DNA of 64,000 nucleotides, from assembly GCF_036227605.1 (NCBI RefSeq), contig NZ_CP109487.1, positions 6,819,501 to 6,883,500 of the forward strand, written 5' to 3'. This document shows, in pieces, positions 47,255 to 56,467 of this stretch. Source of the DNA: Streptomyces sp. NBC_01439 (lineage in GTDB: Bacteria > Actinomycetota > Actinomycetes > Streptomycetales > Streptomycetaceae). Under the pieces are notes generated by a model that had not been told where the DNA came from, ran no database searches, and worked only from the letters and a program-made list of their open reading frames with translations. The first letter of the stretch is position 1; the number at the start of each line of letters is the position of its first letter. The position numbers were made by a program, and so were the translations under genes.

Positions 47255-48070
47255 TCAGTGGACCGCAGTGCGCGCGGCGAGCGCAAGGGTGCGGTGCGCC
47301 GCCGCCACGACCGCCGGGTCCACGAACCGGCCGTCCGGCAGGGCCAGCGCCCCCGGGGTGGCGCGGGCCGCGCTCAGCACCTCCACGGCGGCGCTGACCT
47401 CCTCGGGCGCCGGGAGGTAGGCCCGCTCGATCACCGGGAGCTGGCGCGGATGGATCGCCGCCCGACCGAGGAAGCCCAGGGAGCGGCCGCGGGCGCACGA
47501 GACCGCCAGCGACTCCAGGTCCCGGATGTCGGGGAACACCGACTGCGCCGGGGGCGCGAGCCCCGCGGCCCGGGCCGCGACCACCACCCGGGAGCGGCAC
47601 CAGTCCAGGCCCGTCTCCGCGCTGACGGCCAGGTCGGCCCGCAGGTCCGCCTCGCCGAGGGAGAGCCCGCGCAGGGCGGGGTGCGCGCGGGCGATCTCGT
47701 ACGCGCGCTCCACCCCCACGGCCGATTCGAGCAGGGCGTACAGGCTCACCCCGCCGGTGCGGTCGGCGACGGCCGCGATCTGCCCGGGGGCGCTGATCTT
47801 GGGCAGCCGCAGCCCCGCGAGGCCGTGCAGCCCGCCCAGCGCATTCAGGTCGGCGCCGCCCCAGGGGGAGTCCAGTGCGTTGACGCGGACGTGGACGGGG
47901 AGCGGGGGCCGCTCGGCGAGCAGATCGGCGGTTGCGGCGCGGGCGTACTCCTTGCGCGAGGCCGGTACCGCGTCCTCCAGGTCGACGATGACGGCGTCCG
48001 CCCCGCAGCCGAGGGCCTTGGCGACCACCTCCGGGCGGTCGCCGGGCGCGTACAGCCAGGTCAGGATCAC
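47255..48070 (-). CDS. CitE-like HpcH/HpaI aldolase/lyase
   Basis: The 271-aa barrel belongs to the CitE/citramalyl-CoA lyase family: LTWLYAPGDRPEVVAKALGCGADAVIVDLEDAVP (with the Mg-binding Asp/Glu), VRVNALDSPWGGADL, LRLPKISAP, ALLESAVGVERA (catalytic Glu), SLGEADLRADLAV and GRAAIHPRQLPVIERAY. It should cleave a CoA thioester such as citramalyl- or malyl-CoA. The ATG overlaps the stop of the CoA-transferase gene (ATGA), implying consecutive action: CoA transfer, then C-C cleavage. Last gene of the ADPRH cluster transcript. Confidence 0.88.
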   Translation of the reverse strand: MILTWLYAPGDRPEVVAKALGCGADAVIVDLEDAVPASRKEYARAATADLLAERPPLPVHVRVNALDSPWGGADLNALGGLHGLAGLRLPKISAPGQIAAVADRTGGVSLYALLESAVGVERAYEIARAHPALRGLSLGEADLRADLAVSAETGLDWCRSRVVVAARAAGLAPPAQSVFPDIRDLESLAVSCARGRSLGFLGRAAIHPRQLPVIERAYLPAPEEVSAAVEVLSAARATPGALALPDGRFVDPAVVAAAHRTLALAARTAVH

Positions 48071-49539
48071 AGGGCCCCCTCGGTCCGCAGTGCGGTGATC
48101 TCGGCCCCGGTCAGCCCGAGCTCGGTCAGGACCTCGTCGGTGTCCGCGCCGTGCGGGCGGCCCGCCCAGCGGATCCCGCCGGGGGTCTCGGAGAGCCGGA
48201 AGAGGATGTTCTGCATGCGGAGCGGGCCCAACTCCGGGTCCTCGACCTCGGTGACCGAGTCGAGGGCCGCGAACTGCGGGTCGGCCAGCACGTCCCGGAC
48301 GTCGTAGACCTGGGCGACGGCCGCCTCGGCGTCCTCGAACGCGGCGACCACTTCCTCCGCCTTGTGCCGGGCGATCCAGCCGCCGACGGCGTCGTCCAGG
48401 ACGTCCGCGTGCCGGGCCCGCCCGGCGCTGCTCGCGAACCAGGGCTCGGCGATCAGCTCGGGCCGGCCGACCAGCCGCACGACCCGCTCGGCGATGGACT
48501 GCGCCGAAGCGGAGACCGCCAGCCAGCGCCCGTCGGCGCTGCGGTAGGTGTTGCGGGGGGCGTTGTTCGCGGAGCGGTTGCCGGTGCGCGGCTGGACGTA
48601 GCCGAGCTGGTCGTACCAGAGCGGGTGCGGGCCGAGCACGGTGAGGATCGGCTCGACGATCGCGAGGTCCACGACCTGACCGTGCCCGGTGCGGTCCCGC
48701 CCGGCGAGGGCGGTCATCACGGCGTACGCGCAGGTCAGCGCTGCGATCGAGTCAGCGAGTCCGAAGGGCGGCAGGGTCGGCGGCCCGTCCGGCTCCCCGG
48801 TGATCGCGGCGAATCCGCTCATCGCCTCGGCGAGCGTGCCGAAGCCCGGGCGGTGGGAGTACGGGCCGTGCTGGCCGAAGGCCGTGACGCGCGCCAGGAC
48901 CAGGCGCGGATTGACGGCGGACAGCTCGGGCCAGCCCAGACCCCACTTCTCCAGGGTGCCGGGGCGGAAGTTCTCGACGACCACGTCGGCGGTGGCGGCG
49001 AGGCGCAGCAGGGTGTCCCGGCCGCCCGGGGTGGACAGGTCGAGGGTCATCGTCCGCTTGTTCCGGCCGAGGAGCTTCCACCACAGGCCGATCCCGTTCT
49101 TGGCGGGGCCGTGGCCGCGGGAGGGGTCGGGGCGGTCGGGGTGCTCGACCTTGACGACCTCGGCGCCGAAGTCGCCGAGCAGGGTGGCGGTCAGCGGACC
49201 CGCGAAGAGGGTGGCCAGGTCGATCACGCGGAGCCCCGTCAGAGGTCCCTGACCTGGCCGGGCGTCGGCGGGTGGGGGCTCGGCCACGGGGCGGGGGGTC
49301 GGGGCGACGGCTCGATGCGGGCCTGCGTTCTGCCGCCCCGCGTTCTGCCGCCCCGCGTTCTGCCACCCTGCGTTCTGCCGCCCTGCGGCTTCGCCGGGGG
49401 CGGCGGCTTCGGTGGGGCCGGGCGCGCGCCGGGGCGTCTCCTCGGGTGCCGAACGGTGCCCGGGGCCGGACGGTGCGGCGGCGGTGCGGTCGGCACCCTG
49501 CGGGGATCGCCCCGACACGCTCTCGTCCCCTGGGGTCAC
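48067..49539 (-). CDS. Class III (CaiB/BaiF) CoA-transferase with repeat-containing N-terminus
   Basis: The 490-aa ORF has a ~95-residue low-complexity N-terminus with four (R/W)QNAG pentapeptides at 54-73, and then the CaiB fold: GLRVIDLATLFAGPLTATLLGDFGAEVVKVE, LLGRNKRTMTLDLSTPGGRD, VVVENFRPGTLEKWGLG, the catalytic Asp in GQVVDLAIVEP, and AAVAQVYDVRDVLADPQ. The family swaps CoA between carboxylic acids. The GTG 49539 overlaps the kinase stop (GTGA). True translation could begin nearer GQGPLTGLRVID (about residue 96), the family's usual start; the extension is therefore uncertain. Confidence 0.87.
   Translation of the reverse strand: MTPGDESVSGRSPQGADRTAAAPSGPGHRSAPEETPRRAPGPTEAAAPGEAAGRQNAGWQNAGRQNAGRQNAGPHRAVAPTPRPVAEPPPADARPGQGPLTGLRVIDLATLFAGPLTATLLGDFGAEVVKVEHPDRPDPSRGHGPAKNGIGLWWKLLGRNKRTMTLDLSTPGGRDTLLRLAATADVVVENFRPGTLEKWGLGWPELSAVNPRLVLARVTAFGQHGPYSHRPGFGTLAEAMSGFAAITGEPDGPPTLPPFGLADSIAALTCAYAVMTALAGRDRTGHGQVVDLAIVEPILTVLGPHPLWYDQLGYVQPRTGNRSANNAPRNTYRSADGRWLAVSASAQSIAERVVRLVGRPELIAEPWFASSAGRARHADVLDDAVGGWIARHKAEEVVAAFEDAEAAVAQVYDVRDVLADPQFAALDSVTEVEDPELGPLRMQNILFRLSETPGGIRWAGRPHGADTDEVLTELGLTGAEITALRTEGAL
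49323..49388 (-). repeat. 15-bp tandem repeat in CoA-transferase N-terminal extension
   Basis: Four tandem 15-bp units like CTGCGTTCTGCCGCC (plus strand), with a partial fifth, encode RQNAG/WQNAG on the minus strand. Divisible by three, so copy number changes keep frame. Confidence 0.85.
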
Positions 49540-50513
49540 GAGGCGGCTCCGGTCACGGACTCGCCGGCGGCGGGACGGCGGTCGTCGGCGCGGCCCACCT
49601 GACCGTGCTCCGGCTCCCGCCTGGCCAGGGCGAAGGCGTCGGTTTCGGTGCGGGTCGGCATCGAGTCCTGGGCTCCCGGGCGCTGGACGGAGAGCGCGGC
49701 CGCCGCCGAGGCCCAGCGCAGGGCCTCGGGCATCGGCCGGCGCTCGCCCAGGGCCACGGCGAGGGCGCCGACGAAGGTGTCCCCGGCGGCGGTCGTGTCC
49801 ATGGCCCGCACCCGGGGCGCGGGCACCGTCAGCGGCTCCATGCCGCGGGCGGCGTACAGCGCCCCGGCCGCTCCGAGGGTGATCACCACCTCGGGTACCT
49901 CGGCCAGCAGGGCTTCGGCTGCCCGGAGCGGGTCGGTGAGTCCGGTGAGGGCGGCCGCCTCGTGTTCGTTCGGGACGAGGAGGTCGGTGGCGGCGAGCAG
50001 ATCGGCGGGCAGCGGCTGCGCCGGGGCCGGGGTGAGCACCGTACGGACGCCGTGCGCGCGGGCGGCGCGGGCCCCGGCGAGGACGGCGGAGAGGGGCAGT
50101 TCGAGTTGGAGGAGCAGGGATCCGGCGGCGGCGATCCGGGCCTCGTCCCCCGGCTCGAGGCCGGTGACCGCGGCGTTCGCGCCGGCGATGACGATGATGC
50201 TGTTGCCGCCCTCGTCGTCCACCGTGATGTGGGCGGTGCCGCTGGCGCCCTCGACGGTGCGCAGGCCCGCGGTGTCGACCCGGGCCGCGGTGAGCGCGGA
50301 GCGCAGCCGTACGCCGAACTCGTCGGCCCCGACCGCGCCGATCATCACCACCTCCCCGCCGGAGCGGGCGGCGGCGACGGCCTGGTTGGCGCCCTTGCCG
50401 CCGGGGACCGTGCGGAAGGCCCGGCCGGTGACGGTCTCCCCGAGGCGGGGAGCCTTGGGGACGTAGGCGACGAGGTCCATGTTCGTACTGCCGAGCACGG
50501 CAATGGCCGTCAT
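49536..50513 (-). CDS. rbsK: Ribokinase (PfkB family)
   Basis: The 325-aa kinase matches ribokinase: VLGSTNMDLVAYVPKAPRLGETVTG, GGKGANQAVAAARSGG, MIGAVGADEFG, NSIIVIAGANAAV, VPNEHEAAALTG, VVITLGAAGALY and the catalytic MDTTAAGDTFVGALAVAL (Asp in GD). It would phosphorylate ribose or a related pentose/nucleoside released by the upstream ADP-ribosylglycohydrolases (inference). It overlaps both neighbours by 4 nt. No ribose transporter is linked, suggesting an intracellular source of ribose. Confidence 0.88.
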   Translation of the reverse strand: MTAIAVLGSTNMDLVAYVPKAPRLGETVTGRAFRTVPGGKGANQAVAAARSGGEVVMIGAVGADEFGVRLRSALTAARVDTAGLRTVEGASGTAHITVDDEGGNSIIVIAGANAAVTGLEPGDEARIAAAGSLLLQLELPLSAVLAGARAARAHGVRTVLTPAPAQPLPADLLAATDLLVPNEHEAAALTGLTDPLRAAEALLAEVPEVVITLGAAGALYAARGMEPLTVPAPRVRAMDTTAAGDTFVGALAVALGERRPMPEALRWASAAAALSVQRPGAQDSMPTRTETDAFALARREPEHGQVGRADDRRPAAGESVTGAAS

Positions 50514-52513
50514 GAGCGTGCTGCCTCCTGTGCGGTGAGGTGGGCGAGGGTGTCGAAGCCGATGCCGTCGAAGCCGGGGACGGTGGTGGCGAGGCGGTTC
50601 TTCAAGGGTGCGGTCCAGCGGTGCGGGAGCGCGTCCGGGGAGCCGGCGAGCAGCCCGGCGAGGGCGCCGGCGGTGGCTCCGTTGGAGTCGGTGTCCCAGC
50701 CGCCGGACACGGCGCGGCAGACGGAGCGGGAGAAGTCCCCGTCGGCGTGGGTGAGGGCGGCGGCGATCAGTGCGGTGTTGGGGACGGCGTGGACCCAGTG
50801 GTAGTGCCCGTAGTGGGCGTGCAGTCGGTCGACGACGAGGTCGAAGTCCGCCTCCTGCCCGGCGGCCCGGATTCCGAAGCGGACGGCCTCGGCGAGGCGC
50901 GAACGGGGCGGTACGAAGGCCAGCCCGGTCCGCAGCGCGGTGTGCACGTCCGACCGGCCGGTGGCGGCGGTGGCGGTGGCGGCCGCGACGAAGAGGGCGG
51001 CGTAGACGCCGTTGCCGGTGTGGGTCAGGGTGGCGTCCCGGTAGGCCTGGGCCGCGGCGGCGGCCGGATCGCCCGGATTGGTCCAGCCGTGGACGTCGGC
51101 GCGGATGAGGGCGCCGATCCACTCGCGGAAGGGGTTGTGGTGGGTGGCGGTGACGGGCGGCTCCAGGCCGAGAAGGAGATTGCGGTAGGCGATGCGCTCG
51201 GCGGTGAAGGTCCGCCCGGCCGGCAGCTCGTCGAGCCACAGGCGGGCCACGTCGGCGGTGGTGAAGCCCTTGCCGTGGCGCTGGAGCAGGAGCAGCCCGA
51301 GGAGGGGGTAGTTGAGGTCGTCGTCCTCGGGCATGCCGTCGATGTTCTCGGCGAGGGAGGTGGGGGCGGAGCGGCGGTTCCAGGGGTAGGCGGCCAGGAC
51401 CTCCGGCAGGACGCCGCGTTCGCTGAACCAGTCGTCCAGCGGCCAGTTGCCGGCGGCGCGGGCGAGCGCCCGGATCCCCTCCAGGGGCAGCTTCTCGACG
51501 GGCTTCCCGAGCAGGCACCCGACGGCCCGCCCGAGCCAGGCGGCTTCCAGCCGGGCCCGCAGGGTGGCCTCCGGCCCGGTCTGCGGGGTGGCCTCCGGCC
51601 CGGTCTGCGGCACGGCTCCGGGCCCCGCGCCCGGCTGCCCCGCCGCGCGGGGCGGGGCAGCCCCGAGCGCGGAGGGCCGCACGTGTTCCCGCCCTGCGGG
51701 CGGTGTCCCTGCTGCGCGGTGCGGGACGCGGCCGGGGACCGGCCCCGTGCTCGTGGGCGCCTGCTCCGGGTGGGAGCGGACGTGGCCGTAGTCGCGGCCC
51801 GCGGGCCACGGCCGCTCCGCCGCGGGGGACGGTGCCGGGGCGGGCCCCGCGGGAGGCGGTCCGGGGTCCGGGGCGGTGCCCCGGACCCCGCCGCCTGCGG
51901 CCGGGCCTGCGGGCGGAGCCGCCTTCCTGCTGCCCGGATGCGGCTCGCGGGTTCGGCCGTCGGGGCGGGCGGGTGGCCGTGCCGCCGGGTGTTCGGGATC
52001 CCGATCGGGCCGAGTGCCCGCTGTGCCGTTCGGGGCAGCTCCCGGGATGGTGGGCCGCACGTGTTCCTGCCCTACCGGCGGCGCCCCTGCTGCGCCGGGC
52101 CGAGCCGTGACGTCGGGGTCGGGCCGTGGAGCCGGGGTCGGGAGTTCGACGGGTGGCTGGGAGGCTTTCGCGGCCGGGGGCCAGGTGGCCCGGATGTCGG
52201 GCCAGGATCCGGGCTCGTCGGGTGCGGAACGGGCCGGGAGCTGCGCCAGGTCGTCGAGGAGGCGGGAGGCCAGGGCGCGCAGCTCCGGCGGGACCGGGGT
52301 GGGGGAGGCGCCGGCGCGGTCGGGGGCGGGGTGGCCGCCCGCCGCGAGCCAGGCGCGGAGGGCGGCGGCCGGGTTCCGGCCGTCCTCCGCGGCCTGGCGC
52401 AGCTCGTGCCCGACGAGGTCCTCGGGCTGGGCCCAGGTCAGCCGGAGGGCTTCGCCCACCGGGTCCGGCGCGTACGTAGGTGCGGCCGGGGCGGGCCCGG
52501 TGGCGTCCGTCAC
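50510..52513 (-). CDS. ADP-ribosylglycohydrolase-fold protein with long disordered N-terminus
   Basis: The 667-aa protein has a short helical N-terminal domain (about 15-95), then ~240 residues of Pro/Ala/Gly-rich linker containing VRP and GREHVRP-type repeats, and an ADPRH domain (about 340-667). Motifs differ from the classical enzyme: GRAVGCLLGKPVEKL in place of GDALG, MPEDDDLNYPLL in place of TDDT, THTGNGVYAALF, and an intact GGWDTDSNGATAGALAG metal site. Substrate specificity should therefore differ. GTG 52513 overlaps the upstream stop (GTGA). The linker is unusually long for the family. Confidence 0.83.
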   Translation of the reverse strand: MTDATGPAPAAPTYAPDPVGEALRLTWAQPEDLVGHELRQAAEDGRNPAAALRAWLAAGGHPAPDRAGASPTPVPPELRALASRLLDDLAQLPARSAPDEPGSWPDIRATWPPAAKASQPPVELPTPAPRPDPDVTARPGAAGAPPVGQEHVRPTIPGAAPNGTAGTRPDRDPEHPAARPPARPDGRTREPHPGSRKAAPPAGPAAGGGVRGTAPDPGPPPAGPAPAPSPAAERPWPAGRDYGHVRSHPEQAPTSTGPVPGRVPHRAAGTPPAGREHVRPSALGAAPPRAAGQPGAGPGAVPQTGPEATPQTGPEATLRARLEAAWLGRAVGCLLGKPVEKLPLEGIRALARAAGNWPLDDWFSERGVLPEVLAAYPWNRRSAPTSLAENIDGMPEDDDLNYPLLGLLLLQRHGKGFTTADVARLWLDELPAGRTFTAERIAYRNLLLGLEPPVTATHHNPFREWIGALIRADVHGWTNPGDPAAAAAQAYRDATLTHTGNGVYAALFVAAATATAATGRSDVHTALRTGLAFVPPRSRLAEAVRFGIRAAGQEADFDLVVDRLHAHYGHYHWVHAVPNTALIAAALTHADGDFSRSVCRAVSGGWDTDSNGATAGALAGLLAGSPDALPHRWTAPLKNRLATTVPGFDGIGFDTLAHLTAQEAARS

Positions 52514-53655
52514 CGGTCCGCCGCGATCGCGGTGAAGGCCGCCTCGTGGGAGCGGCGGCGGGAGCGGTCGAGCGCGAAGATCTCCCGGGCCACCGCGGCC
52601 AGCGCCTCGGCCGGGGCGTGCAGGTCGAGGCGGCTGGCCTCGGCGACCTGCTTGGCCCAGGCGGCCGGGACCGCGGCCTCGCCGCCCAGGGCTCCGGCGA
52701 TCGCCCCCGCCATGGTGGCGATGGAGTCGCAGTCCCGGCCGTAGTTGACCGCGCCGAGCACCGCGGTCTCGTACCGTCCGTCCGCGACGAGCAGCATCCC
52801 GAGCGCGACCGGGAGTTCCTCGATGGCATGGAGGCGGGAGGGACGGCGGGCGTCGAGCGACGGGCTTCGGTAGTCCGGCCCGACCGAGTCGTACGGGGTC
52901 ACCGCCGCCCGCAGCGGGGCCAGCGCCGACTCGAAGTCCCGGTGGCCGGCGGCCACTTCGCGGACGGCCGCGATCGCGTTGCGCGTGCCGTCCTTGGCCA
53001 GGGACAGGGCGGTGTCGACCACCGAGGCGGCCGTCGCCCCGGGCACGCACGCGGCCGCCACCGCCGCCGCGAACACGCCCGCAGCCTCCCGCCCGTACGA
53101 GGACTGGTGCGCACCGGCGACGTCCAGCGCCTCCGCGTACGCGCCCGCCGGATTGCCCGCGTTGGCGATCCCCACCGGGGCCATGTACATCGCCGCACCG
53201 CAGTTGACGATGTTGCCGCTGCCGGCCTCGCGGGGGTCGGCGTGCGCGTAGTGCAGCCGGGTCACGATCCACTTCTCGGCGAGGAAGATCCGCTGCAACG
53301 GCAGGGCCTCTGCCTCCAGTTCCGGGATCCAGCGGGGCGTGGACATCAGGTCGGGGACCAGGTGCTCGGCGATCGCGTAGGCGTCGAGGTGGTCCCGTAC
53401 GGCCTCGTAGACCCGTACCAGCGCGTGCGTCATCAGGGTGTCGTCCGTGACGTGCCCGTCGCCCTTGTGGTACGGGGCGATGGGGCGGGCCGTGCGCCAG
53501 TCCTTGTACCAGGGGCCGACGATGCCGTGCACGCGACCGCCGTGCCGTTCCACGATCTGGTCCGGGGTCCAGCCCTCCACCGGGCCGCCGAGCGCATCGC
53601 CGACGGCGGCTCCGACGAGGGCGCCGCGGGCCCGGTCCTCCAACGTGAGCGTCAT
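52510..53655 (-). CDS. ADP-ribosylglycohydrolase (canonical motifs)
   Basis: The 381-aa protein has all expected metal-site motifs: GAAVGDALGGPVEGW, GHVTDDTLMTHALV, NCGAAMYMAPVGIANAG and GRDCDSIATMAGAIAGALGG. Family members hydrolyse N- or O-glycosidic bonds of ADP-ribose (from protein Arg/Ser) or related ribosides, with two Mg ions. Cytoplasmic; no signal. It starts 7 bp after the stop of the gene upstream and overlaps the next. Extra insertions near 215-260 (TPYDSVGPDYRSP) could shape the substrate pocket. Confidence 0.9.
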   Translation of the reverse strand: MTLTLEDRARGALVGAAVGDALGGPVEGWTPDQIVERHGGRVHGIVGPWYKDWRTARPIAPYHKGDGHVTDDTLMTHALVRVYEAVRDHLDAYAIAEHLVPDLMSTPRWIPELEAEALPLQRIFLAEKWIVTRLHYAHADPREAGSGNIVNCGAAMYMAPVGIANAGNPAGAYAEALDVAGAHQSSYGREAAGVFAAAVAAACVPGATAASVVDTALSLAKDGTRNAIAAVREVAAGHRDFESALAPLRAAVTPYDSVGPDYRSPSLDARRPSRLHAIEELPVALGMLLVADGRYETAVLGAVNYGRDCDSIATMAGAIAGALGGEAAVPAAWAKQVAEASRLDLHAPAEALAAVAREIFALDRSRRRSHEAAFTAIAADR

Positions 53656-53662
53656 GTCCGAA

Positions 53663-55225
53663 TCATCCCTTGGGTGAGGTGAGTTCCGTGGCCGCGAGGA
53701 GCGCGGCGAGTTCCACGAGGTCGGTGCCGGCGAGGCGGGGGAGGGCGCAGCCGGAGAGGGTGCGGCAGGCTTCGCGCCAGGCGGCGGGGATCGAGTCGCC
53801 GCCGCCGAGGACGCCGGTCAGCGCGCCGGCCAGGGCGGGGGCGGAGTCCGCGACGCGGGACAGGCAGGCGGCGGCCGGGACGGCCTCGGTCATCCTGCCG
53901 CGGGCGGCCGTGGCGAGGGCGAGGGCCACGGGGACGGTCTCGGCGGCGGCGATCCCGTAGCTGTAGACGTGGTCGACGATCTCGTGTTCGAGGGTGGGGA
54001 CGATGCCGAAGGCGCCGCCGTCCTTGTGGGTACGGGCGAGGCGGACGGCGTGCCGGGCGTTGCGGCCGATCTCGGTGGCCGCGGGGAGCTGGGCGAGGGC
54101 GGCGTCCACGGCGGCGTCCACGGCGTCGGCGGCGTCGGCGGCGTCGGCGGCGGAGGGGGTGGTGAGGGCGGTGGCGATGGCGGCGGCCATGGCGCGGGCG
54201 CCGTGCACCCCGTCGCCGTCCTGGGTGTAGCGGGCGTCGAACTCGGCGAGGTCGGCGGCGGCGCGGGCGTCGCCGGGATGCACGACGGCGAGGACGCAGG
54301 CGCGGACGCAGGCGGCGTCGTCGAAGTAGTGCGGGTTGTCGTGGCCGGTGGCGGGCGGGCGCAGGCCGGTGGCGAGGTTGCCGAGGCCGGCGCGGACGGA
54401 GATCCGGGCGCGGAGGGGGAGGACGGCGGACTCGACCTCGGGCGCGCGTTCCGCTGCCGCGGCGACTTCGGAGGCCAGGGCGTTCCACGCGAGGTCGATG
54501 GCGGCGCGCATGCGACGGGACCGGGAGAGGTCACTGAGGAGGACGCCGGCGGCGGTGAGCACGGACTCGGCGACGAACGCAGCCCATTCGGCGTCGTCGG
54601 AGGGCCCGAGGCGAAGGGGTTCGGGGGGCTGGTTGAGGGCGATGGGGACGGGGAGGGTGGTGGTGGCGTTCTGCTCGGCGAAGGTGTCGAGTTCGCGGGT
54701 CAGGCGGCGGGTCCACTCGGGCATCCGGCTGGCGCGGTGGCGGGCGGCGGGCCACCCGGCCGCGTCGCCGGCGGCGAGCCCGAGGAGGAGCCCCTCGATC
54801 GGCCGCACCCCTGCCGGTTCCCCTGCGGGGGGCTCGGCGGGTCGTTCCGGGGTCCGGACCCCGGTCCCGGCCGGGGCCCTCTGCCCGGCCCGGACCACGA
54901 TCCGGGACCCCGTCCCGGGGTGGGGTGCGAGGACGCTCCCCACCCCGCCGCCCTCCGCACCCGGGGGCAGCACCCCGGGCCGCTGCTCGGCCGGAGCCGG
55001 CCCGGCCCCCGTGACCAGCCGCATCGCGGGCAGCACCCGAGCCGACGCTCCGACCGGGGCCCGATCGTTCGGGGGCCGGCCTACCGGCTCGGCCGGGGCC
55101 GGGGCCGTACCCGGGGCCGGGCAGCCGGGCTCCGGCGCGCGTGGGGCCGCACCCGGGGGCGGGCTCTCGGGGCCCCGGTCCGCCGGGGGTGGCGCCAGCG
55201 TTTGGTCGTCCGGCGAGGGGGTCAT
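53663..55225 (-). CDS. Divergent ADP-ribosylglycohydrolase-fold protein with degenerate metal site
   Basis: The 520-aa protein has a Pro/Gly/Ala-rich N-terminus (1-145) and a C-terminal ADPRH-like domain. LLLGLAAGDAAGWPAARHRA corresponds to the first motif; SDDAEWAAFV to TDDT; QDGDGVHGARAMAAAI to the central motif. The last motif is RVADSAPALAGALTGVLGGG, in which the second acidic residue of the usual DxD is missing. Catalysis may be lost or changed; it may serve as a partner of the other three enzymes. ATG 55225 overlaps the upstream stop (ATGA). Confidence 0.8.
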   Translation of the reverse strand: MTPSPDDQTLAPPPADRGPESPPPGAAPRAPEPGCPAPGTAPAPAEPVGRPPNDRAPVGASARVLPAMRLVTGAGPAPAEQRPGVLPPGAEGGGVGSVLAPHPGTGSRIVVRAGQRAPAGTGVRTPERPAEPPAGEPAGVRPIEGLLLGLAAGDAAGWPAARHRASRMPEWTRRLTRELDTFAEQNATTTLPVPIALNQPPEPLRLGPSDDAEWAAFVAESVLTAAGVLLSDLSRSRRMRAAIDLAWNALASEVAAAAERAPEVESAVLPLRARISVRAGLGNLATGLRPPATGHDNPHYFDDAACVRACVLAVVHPGDARAAADLAEFDARYTQDGDGVHGARAMAAAIATALTTPSAADAADAADAVDAAVDAALAQLPAATEIGRNARHAVRLARTHKDGGAFGIVPTLEHEIVDHVYSYGIAAAETVPVALALATAARGRMTEAVPAAACLSRVADSAPALAGALTGVLGGGDSIPAAWREACRTLSGCALPRLAGTDLVELAALLAATELTSPKG

Positions 55226-56217
55226 CGGACGGCCTCGCATTCCGGGGTGAGGAGGTCCGCGATGTCCAGGACGTGGTAGCCCCGCATCGAGGGGAGGCAG
55301 CTGCCGCGTACCGGGCCGATGGCCGAGGACCAGGCGGCGGGGATCGCACCGGCGCCCGACAGCGCGCCGGCCAGGGCGCCCGCCACCGCCGCGGTGGTGT
55401 CGGCGTCGCGGCCCATGTTCACGGCGGTGAGGACGGAGGACGGGAAGTCGCCCCGGCAGGCGGCGAAGGCCCCGAAGGCCAGGCCCACCGCCTCCGGGGC
55501 CAGGTCGGTCCACGGGTAGCCGCCGATGACCACCGCCGAGCGCACCGCCCGTTCGCCGCGCGGGGCGGCGGTGACCGCCCGGCGCAGGGAGCGGGCCGTC
55601 CAGGAGTCGGACGGGATGACGGACAGGGCCGCGGAGATCGCCGAGGCGGGGGAGCCGCCGGCCATGGCGGCGGCCACGCCCGCCGCGACCGCCTGGCCGC
55701 CGTAGATGCCCTCCCCGTCGTGGCTGACCGAGCCGTCGACGGCGACGAGCCGGGCCGCTTCCGCGGGCCGGCCCGCGGCGAAGACGCCGAACGGCGCGGC
55801 CCGCATGGCCAGGCCGTCCGACCACGCGTGCCGGTGTTGGGCGGAGATGGGTGCGGCCAGGCCCCGCCGGAGGTTCTCCAAGGTGCCGCGCTCGGAGAAC
55901 CCGGCGCCCCGGAAGGGGCCTTCGTCGAGGTCGGCGATCCAGTGGTGCCAGGCCCGCTCCACGTGGGAGACGGTGAGCGCCGAGCCGTGCCGGGCCAGCA
56001 ACAGCCCCGAGAAGATCGCGTACTCGGTGTCGTCCGTGCCCGCCGGGTCCTCCGACACGAAACCTTCGATGCGGCCCCATTTCGCCCGGATCTGCGAAGG
56101 CTTCATGTTCTCCGCGGGGGCGCCCAGCGCGTCACCCACGGCGAGTCCGAGAAGAGCGCCCCTGGCCCGTTCGAGGAGGACCTGCGGATTGCATGCAATC
56201 AGCTTCATCGGCTCCAT
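55222..56217 (-). CDS. ADP-ribosylglycohydrolase (first gene of cluster)
   Basis: The 331-aa enzyme has complete motifs: GLAVGDALGAPAENM, AGTDDTEYAIFSGLLLA, HDGEGIYGGQAVAAGVAAAM and NMGRDADTTAAVAGALAGALSG. It lacks the disordered N-terminal extensions of its neighbours. The start ATG 56217 (MEPMKLIAC) has GGGAGAGG 6 nt upstream; ATG 56208 is a second choice. It is the promoter-proximal gene of a seven-gene coupled cluster (to 47255). The 250-bp gap to the divergent VIT1 gene must hold the promoter. Confidence 0.9.
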   Translation of the reverse strand: MEPMKLIACNPQVLLERARGALLGLAVGDALGAPAENMKPSQIRAKWGRIEGFVSEDPAGTDDTEYAIFSGLLLARHGSALTVSHVERAWHHWIADLDEGPFRGAGFSERGTLENLRRGLAAPISAQHRHAWSDGLAMRAAPFGVFAAGRPAEAARLVAVDGSVSHDGEGIYGGQAVAAGVAAAMAGGSPASAISAALSVIPSDSWTARSLRRAVTAAPRGERAVRSAVVIGGYPWTDLAPEAVGLAFGAFAACRGDFPSSVLTAVNMGRDADTTAAVAGALAGALSGAGAIPAAWSSAIGPVRGSCLPSMRGYHVLDIADLLTPECEAVR

Positions 56218-56467
56218 GGCGCGCCTCTCCCACATCGGATGGGGCTCATCATGAGCCCTTGGGGGATTTGTGCCATGGCATGTGGTTTGTCGCCCACCGC
56301 GAAACACCCCGCGAACACCCCCGTCACCCGGTCGCCGACCCGCAAAAGCCCAGGTAAGTACGGCCTTCCTTGCTGGCGGGCGGCAGAAATCGTGCGTAGT
56401 TTCGAGGTGTTCAGGGGGAGCGGGGCGCGTTGTGGCGTCCGTTCGCAGATTTGGGGAGATTCCACGC

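Follow-up and report, generated by a model that had tools for sequence, protein, structure and literature searches.

A seven-gene cluster of ADP-ribosylhydrolase-fold proteins in Streptomyces, probably the enzyme set of a catabolic operon for a furanoside conjugate

In a 64,000-nt stretch of the Streptomyces sp. NBC_01439 genome (contig NZ_CP109487.1, positions 6,819,501 to 6,883,500, referred to here as the window), seven genes on the minus strand, A to G, run from position 56217 to 47255. Four encode proteins of the ADP-ribosylhydrolase (ARH) fold, and these are followed by a PfkB-type kinase, a coenzyme A (CoA)-transferase and a CitE-like lyase. We propose that these genes encode the intracellular enzymes of an operon that catabolises a pentofuranoside conjugate, most simply a riboside, and we consider this reading probable. 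Our confidence in a catabolic operon as such is moderate to good; in ribose together with a specific acid it is low. One point is new beyond a preliminary description of the window: relatives in other families carry an adjacent LacI regulator and a sugar importer, both gone from most Streptomyces loci.

The genome, whose nearest relatives are Streptomyces, is a single contig of 9.58 Mb with eight matches to the ARH family PF03747, four of them in the cluster, where proteins A to D score between 114.8 and 206.6 bits against a cut-off of 26.2 bits. Pfam bore out the families named in the preliminary description, namely four ARH-fold proteins, a PfkB kinase, a CoA-transferase and a CitE-like lyase. 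The tight coupling of the genes was also confirmed, with 4-nt overlaps (ATGA or GTGA) at five junctions (A/B, C/D, D/E, E/F and F/G) and a 7-nt gap without overlap at B/C. No importer lies beside A in this genome. The features, all on the minus strand, are as follows.

55222..56217, minus strand: gene A, ARH/DraG-fold hydrolase, 331 aa (PF03747, 206.6 bits; alignment with DraG, 2woe/2woc)
53663..55225, minus strand: gene B, degenerate ARH-fold protein, 520 aa (PF03747, 114.8 bits)
52510..53655, minus strand: gene C, ARH-fold hydrolase, 381 aa (PF03747, 174.6 bits)
50510..52513, minus strand: gene D, ARH-fold hydrolase, 667 aa (PF03747, 168.4 bits)
49536..50513, minus strand: gene E, ribokinase-type PfkB kinase, 325 aa (Pfam PfkB; TIGR02152, 310.4 bits)
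48067..49539, minus strand: gene F, class III (CaiB/FRC-type) CoA-transferase, 490 aa (PF02515, CoA_transf_3, 402.8 bits)
47255..48070, minus strand: gene G, CitE-like C-C lyase, 271 aa (PF03328, HpcH_HpaI, 103.6 bits)
56218..56467, minus strand: divergent region before A, up to the VIT1 start called by the gene finder; contains TGGCACAAAT at 56275-56266

Linkage of the genes inside and outside Streptomyces

Relatives were sought in a class-wide draw of 345 genomes, 55 of which had a match to C at an E value of 1e-40; 30 of these lie outside Streptomyces, in five other families. Twenty-four outside loci were compared, from 23 of those 30 genomes (the other seven were not included) and from Nonomuraea gerenzanensis. 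C served as the query for every one of these loci, so that its presence in 24/24 is by selection. A LacI regulator, two ATP-binding cassette (ABC) permeases and a solute-binding protein (SBP) accompany the cluster in 23 of the loci, and the remaining one is cut by a contig end. The outside layout is LacI-permease-permease-binding protein-A-B-C-D-E-(X)-F-G, in which X is an extra gene. Pfam names the regulator and importer proteins LacI, BPD_transp_1 and SBP_bac_1 (genome G059), and we take these importer operons to be of the CUT1 class. When 296 genomes were drawn from the whole phylum, C was found in eight Streptomyces only, and a plasmid search with A matched a single record, from Nonomuraea.

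In Streptomyces, A is visible along with gltB or VIT1 in 69 loci, and in four of these (L023, L028, L036 and L049) LacI and the importer lie between gltB and A. Because these four keep it there, we infer an ancestral importer that most Streptomyces have lost from this site. The window holds the enzymes of what looks like a catabolic operon without its former importer.

The operon is modular. Outside Streptomyces, A and B are both present in 22 of the 24 loci and both absent from two, one of them cut by a contig end; D occurs in 23/24, E in 19/24, F and G in 20/24 and X in 11/24. Three short forms were found. L196 reads LacI-P2-P1-SBP-C-D-X-F-G (P1 and P2, permeases) and lacks A, B and E. L197, from a Nanopelagicaceae metagenome-assembled genome, reads LacI-P2-P1-SBP-C-A-B-F-G without D, E and X, and its C is identical to a protein of Candidatus Nanopelagicaceae bacterium. 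L198 reads F-G-LacI-P2-P1-SBP-C-D-A-B, without E and X. On this gene content, the importer, C, F and G therefore form the core of the short forms. A and B occur as a pair, either D or that pair may be absent, and the kinase is dispensable. The separation of F-G from the hydrolases in L188, L189 and L208 speaks against a strict core.

Gene X (L119, 7687-9609, and its relatives) encodes a protein of about 640 aa with a C-terminal domain of the formylglycine-generating enzyme (FGE)-sulfatase type. A sequence search of the PDB matched this FGE-like C-terminal part only and gave no match for the N-terminal part. A relative of X in Spirosoma adjoins a gene of glycoside hydrolase (GH) family 28.

Within Streptomyces, 80 loci were compared, being the best 80 of 487 confirmed relatives of B and hence biased to B-bearing loci. 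A, B, C, D, F and G are all present in 69 of them, in the same order in 69/69, so that the co-occurrence in other genomes proposed earlier as a check was indeed found. Ten of the other 11 loci end at a contig end and one, L079, is without A. In L079 (1-7000) B is preceded by 6.8 kb of unrelated genes, of purine-synthesis type by reading, from either a rearrangement or a misassembly.

An order-wide draw of 99 genomes comprised 84 same-genus rows, with the present genome included, and 15 genomes of other families. A full-length C orthologue was found in 63 of the 84 rows, a partial one in two and none in 19; the 15 genomes of other families had none. Joint loss was checked for C, D and F. Of the 19 Streptomyces genomes without C, 17 are also without D and F orthologues, and C, D and F are thus usually lost together. 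None of these 17 has a D orthologue at ≥77% identity (two have a homologue at 46-47%), and 16 have no F match at an E value of 1e-100, the other (G078) having one at 66%. The remaining two C-less genomes are G102, with pieces of D and F at a contig break, and G146, which lost B and C and kept A, D and F. The A-B pairing breaks down twice in Streptomyces: L079 has B but no A, and G146 has A but no B. Damaged clusters were also seen: C and D are shortened in L164; L165 has lost A, and its shortened B persists without it beside shortened C, F and G; B and C are absent from L166.

On one flank the cluster adjoins gltB and a VIT1 gene, and on the opposite flank lgt and trp genes (lgt, gltB and trp were named from translations). 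Upstream of A, the element TGGCACAAAT at 56275-56266 on the minus strand follows the pattern TGG[CG]A[CG]ANAT. This pattern occurs within the 400 bp before the match to A in 52 of 69 Streptomyces loci, at 41-73 nt in 36 of these, compared with a background of 56 in 3570 400-bp stretches of the same loci on one strand. It is perhaps a promoter or operator. An inverted repeat with 8-bp arms, GGGCTCAT-G-ATGAGCCC, lies directly before A at 56242-56258; it was set aside as an operator since it was found in just 8/69 Streptomyces loci.

Related arrangements exist on plasmids and beyond the Actinomycetota. C matched 22 plasmid records, of which six were examined. Rhizobial plasmids carry LacI, two permeases, an SBP, a C-like ARH protein (43-45% identical to C), a D-like ARH protein and UgpC. 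The D-like protein is about 700 aa long and about 30% identical to D, with an extra C-terminal half; it is not listed in the gene table of Pseudochrobactrum. In Ensifer sp. PDNC004, UgpC is followed by a CoA-transferase (45% to F) and a CoA ester lyase (33% to G), and an Agrobacterium plasmid operon ends with a ribokinase (41% to E). Because the permeases share only 24-29% identity with their actinobacterial counterparts along most of the sequence and the binding protein is unmatched at an E value of 1e-4, we regard the rhizobial operon as a diverged form. On plasmids of Mycolicibacterium arabiense and Deinococcus aetherius, a D-like ARH protein (40% and 37%, respectively) accompanies a carbohydrate importer and a ribokinase. 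On a Sphingopyxis plasmid (L221, 2327-8376) the order is TonB receptor-ribokinase-X-like protein-GH127-type protein-CoA-transferase. These loci vary the same theme, in which import, furanose-type hydrolysis, a ribokinase and CoA enzymes come together. ARH proteins of about 680-710 aa were also seen beside LacI and a solute-binding protein on an Enterobacter plasmid (L218, 6726-11185) and beside UgpC on an Agrobacterium plasmid (L219, 8815-11926).

Conserved residues and domain build of the proteins

In DraG and ARH3, a Glu residue and the T/S-D-D and D-x-D-T/S motifs supply the metal ligands. When A was compared with DraG (2woe/2woc), the Glu, TDDT and DADT residues aligned and all were intact in A. 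RDADT is present in 95/95 A sequences and a TDDTE-type motif in 94/95. C has TDDTL in 104/105 sequences and RD-x-DS in 105/105, with the Glu present in the aligned examples. In D the motif is PEDDDL (101/101), with Glu instead of the Thr of TDD; WDTDS occurs in 95/101, and the ligand Glu is kept in those aligned examples that cover the site.

B differs from these three. The first Asp of D-x-D is replaced in all 102 B sequences (by Val in 86, Leu in 13 and Asn, Thr or Lys in one each), and another residue stands in for the Glu in each of the 69 sequences that extend over its site (33 others do not reach it). An SDD-type motif is retained in 100 of the 102. Because the first Asp of D-x-D is lost throughout, B is probably a non-catalytic partner of A. 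A to D are not equivalent enzymes, B being without key active-site residues. The earlier suggestion that four hydrolases may act in steps does not hold as worded, since B is probably not catalytic and natural loci manage with C and D or with C, A and B.

A predicted model of B matched the ARH3 and DraG folds with a probability of 1.00 and a template modelling (TM) score of about 0.4-0.6, the model itself being of low confidence (mean predicted local distance difference test, pLDDT, 64.8). A single chain passed an E value of 0.001 in this fold search, and it came from an entry other than those of ARH3 and DraG. The N-terminus of B, about 140 aa, is Pro/Ala-rich. D consists of a conserved N-terminal part of about 95 aa, a Streptomyces linker and the ARH core. 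The N-terminal part (about 52460-52170) has no Pfam domain and is conserved in aligned orthologues of five other families. A PDB sequence search with D gave no match at an E value of 0.001, and the model of a D orthologue (L062; mean pLDDT 63.2, low confidence) matched the ARH folds of 1t5j, DraG and ARH3. Long Pro/Ala-rich stretches were seen in this genome in B (55225-54800), D (about 52150-51600) and F (49539-49250). A comparison covering B and D found them missing from the aligned orthologues of other families.

Kinase E scores 310.4 bits with the NCBIfam model TIGR02152, above the cut-off of 299.65, and 279.6 bits with PRK11142, below the cut-off of 341. F has a low-complexity N-terminus of about 95 aa and retains an Asp that aligns with the Asp of formyl-CoA transferase (10uh, 4ed9), the active-site residue of class III CoA-transferases. 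Against the succinate-glutarate/formyl-CoA transferase equivalogs the best score of F was 224.5 bits (cut-off, 750 bits). G retains Arg, Glu and Asp residues that align with CitE-type lyase chains; its best NCBIfam scores were 147.9 bits for RipC (cut-off, 375) and 129.3 bits for citE (cut-off, 443.4). F-G were rejected specifically as itaconate or 3-hydroxy-3-methylglutaryl (HMG) enzymes, since their scores stay below the cut-off of every specific model.

The neighborhoods of F homologues provide a lead to the acid. In haloarchaea they adjoin genes for HMG-CoA lyase and isopropylmalate-dehydratase-type proteins, and in Rhodococcus a CoA ester lyase and PrpF. Though unlike each other, these settings suggest branched or hydroxy-dicarboxylates. 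A second F-G pair was seen in L159 (5586-12153) with a DctM-type permease, an RraA-like aldolase, an IclR regulator and an NAD_binding_2/DUF1932 dehydrogenase.

Proposed pathway and alternative explanations

ARH enzymes attack furanosyl bonds that adjoin a cis-diol, the substrate of ribokinase is free ribose, and a CoA-transferase with a CitE-type lyase can turn a 3-hydroxy acid into a CoA ester that is then cleaved. In the ancestral form of the operon, a LacI repressor would control a CUT1-type ABC importer that brings the conjugate into the cell. A, C and D would cleave furanosidic bonds at a two-metal site that binds the cis-2,3-diol, and B, a degenerate copy, may join A as a subunit that lends structure or presents the substrate. 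Phosphorylation of the released pentose would fall to E or to a housekeeping kinase. The acid would be activated by F and split by G, and would most likely be a 3-hydroxy-dicarboxylic acid of the malate, citramalate or HMG kind. Since importer and regulator are gone from most Streptomyces loci, the present one among them, the substrate in those strains would be made inside the cell or enter by another route.

The preliminary description had proposed a single pathway that releases a sugar and degrades an acid. Gene content and conservation fit this, and the comparative support for a single pathway is strong; the frequent lack of the kinase and the loci with F-G apart make it weaker than first assumed. 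We now redirect the idea from ADP-ribose to imported furanoside conjugates. More tentatively, the ARH-fold proteins of the cluster could represent an unrecognised class of intracellular furanosidases, in which a catalytic member and a conserved pseudoenzyme partner, helped by one or two more members, dismantle a widespread pentofuranoside-hydroxyacid conjugate, the sugar passing to a ribokinase and the acid to the CoA-transferase and CitE-type lyase, with a core operon in streamlined Nanopelagicaceae and soil actinomycetes that diverged in rhizobia and in Streptomyces became an importer-free pathway for a metabolite that is internal or imported differently; we would not yet bet on this broader picture.

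Several observations weigh against the catabolic-operon proposal. E is absent from 5/24 outside loci, one because of a contig end and four for other reasons, and 11 of the 78 Streptomyces loci with both D and F have no E or no more than a remnant of it. This dispensability is explicable if a housekeeping ribokinase substitutes, yet it would leave room for a different sugar. In L188, L189 (in which 1.9 kb is visible past D) and L208, F-G do not adjoin the hydrolases. In this genome no close importer homologue exists elsewhere, the best SBP being 24% and the best permease 36% identical. Five records of the rhizobial order include F-G in one and a ribokinase at the operon end in one, and the rhizobial, Mycolicibacterium and Deinococcus binding proteins do not match the actinobacterial one at an E value of 1e-4, their permeases being 24-35% identical. 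F and G stay below every specific NCBIfam cut-off, and the AlphaFold2 (AF2) models are of low confidence. The ARH fold and motifs are also compatible with ADP-ribosyl hydrolysis.

The sugar could instead be a different furanose with a cis-diol, such as apiose or arabinofuranose, carried by a glycoside of plant or microbial origin, with E as the kinase for it. The Sphingopyxis plasmid, with its run of ribokinase, X-like protein, GH127 β-L-arabinofuranosidase-type protein and CoA-transferase, points in this direction, as does the failure of E with the PRK11142 model even though it passes TIGR02152. However, E scores best as a ribokinase, and the recurring operon genes include none recognised as belonging to an apiose or arabinose pathway. 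On balance we find this alternative rather unlikely.

F-G may also serve another acid, because they lie apart from the hydrolases in the three loci named above and the second L159 pair stands among organic-acid genes (RraA-like, DUF1932 dehydrogenase, IclR and DctM). They would then be an independent organic-acid module parked beside a riboside module, to which the haloarchaeal neighborhoods of F, with HMG-CoA lyase and isopropylmalate-dehydratase-type genes, would conform. Such independence is difficult to reconcile with the presence of F-G in 20/24 outside loci, among them the short operons L196, L197 and L198, in which D, E or A-B are missing, and with their recurrence beside C-like and D-like genes in Ensifer, and we regard it as unlikely.

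Degradation of a nucleoside or modified nucleoside, in which the importer brings in the nucleoside, the ARH enzymes cut the N-glycosidic bond and ribokinase takes the ribose, has precedents in simpler arrangements of similar parts. E. coli yegTUV with its regulator YegW (GgaR) combines a predicted nucleoside symporter, an ARH-fold protein, a sugar kinase and a regulator; as far as the accessible text goes, it differs from the present cluster in having a single ARH protein, a nucleoside:H+ symporter-family transporter, a GntR regulator and no CoA enzymes (PMC10819704). The staphylococcal ARH-permease-ribokinase trio of the SERP2216-2218 type has its three parts adjacent, but with one ARH protein and a permease of the cytosine/purines/allantoin family, and the accessible portion of the source describes no CoA-transferase or lyase (PMC3637587). 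The importer found here is instead of carbohydrate type (SBP_bac_1, and annotated as a carbohydrate ABC permease in rhizobia), no base-degrading gene was found among the recurring operon genes, and F-G need an acid. We therefore doubt that a nucleoside is the substrate.

The least likely explanation, ranked low as the main role, is that the ARH proteins strip ADP-ribose from modified proteins or nucleic acids in signalling or defence, with the kinase and CoA enzymes being accidental neighbors or recycling ADP-ribose-derived ribose: the family name, the fold and the DraG-like residues of A agree with it, but the other way point the sugar importer, LacI and CoA enzymes that stay linked to the ARH genes across several families and also in rhizobia, the lost ligands of B and the lack of any ADP-ribosyltransferase among the seven genes by Pfam. 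Eight uncharacterised DraG/ARH homologues are listed in S. coelicolor, SCO2028-SCO2031 among them (PMC9411070), and SCO2028-SCO2030 are listed as such elsewhere (PMC5087735). By gene order SCO2028-SCO2031 would correspond to A-D; the kinase is missing there, a situation also seen in L055. SCO5809, an ARH-like protein encoded elsewhere in S. coelicolor, removes phosphate-linked ADP-ribose from RNA (PMC11833690). Purified SCO2028 and SCO2030 had no detectable activity on U-alpha-ADP-ribose, a result that speaks against ADP-ribosylation reversal and for our proposal, within the limits of a single ADP-ribose substrate and with no positive control for these two seen in the available text (PMC13036486).

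Known systems and significance

A published description of this operon was not recognised in the open-licence literature, and each known system resembles it in part. DraG, ARH1 and ARH3 (PF03747) share the fold; A aligns with DraG at the Glu, TDD and DxDT residues, and C and D keep most of these. They differ from the cluster in its context of sugar import and catabolism, in B without ligands and in D with PEDDDL and an extra N-terminal part. CUT1 sugar ABC-transporter operons with LacI have the layout and protein families of the ancestral form. In contrast to these, the present operon uses ARH-fold hydrolases and not a recognised glycoside hydrolase family, contains acid-degrading genes and, in this genome's copy, has no importer. 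RipABC itaconate degradation and the citramalyl-CoA and malyl-CoA lyase pathways, like the cluster, join a CoA-transferase with a CitE-type C-C lyase, and RipC is the best NCBIfam model for G; unlike them, the cluster is without a hydratase, its scores lie far below the RipC and citE cut-offs and F matches no specific model above its cut-off.

Bacterial ARH proteins are usually read as erasers of ADP-ribosylation. If our proposal is correct and four of the eight S. coelicolor homologues belong to such an operon, part of the supposed richness of Streptomyces in ADP-ribosylation reversal would be a naming artefact. A compound used by Nanopelagicaceae and soil bacteria may then await identification, and the importer-bearing relatives offer a direct handle, since their binding protein could be used to fish for the substrate. 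The ARH fold, named for ADP-ribose, would also serve sugar catabolism, and a new substrate class for the family would become testable.

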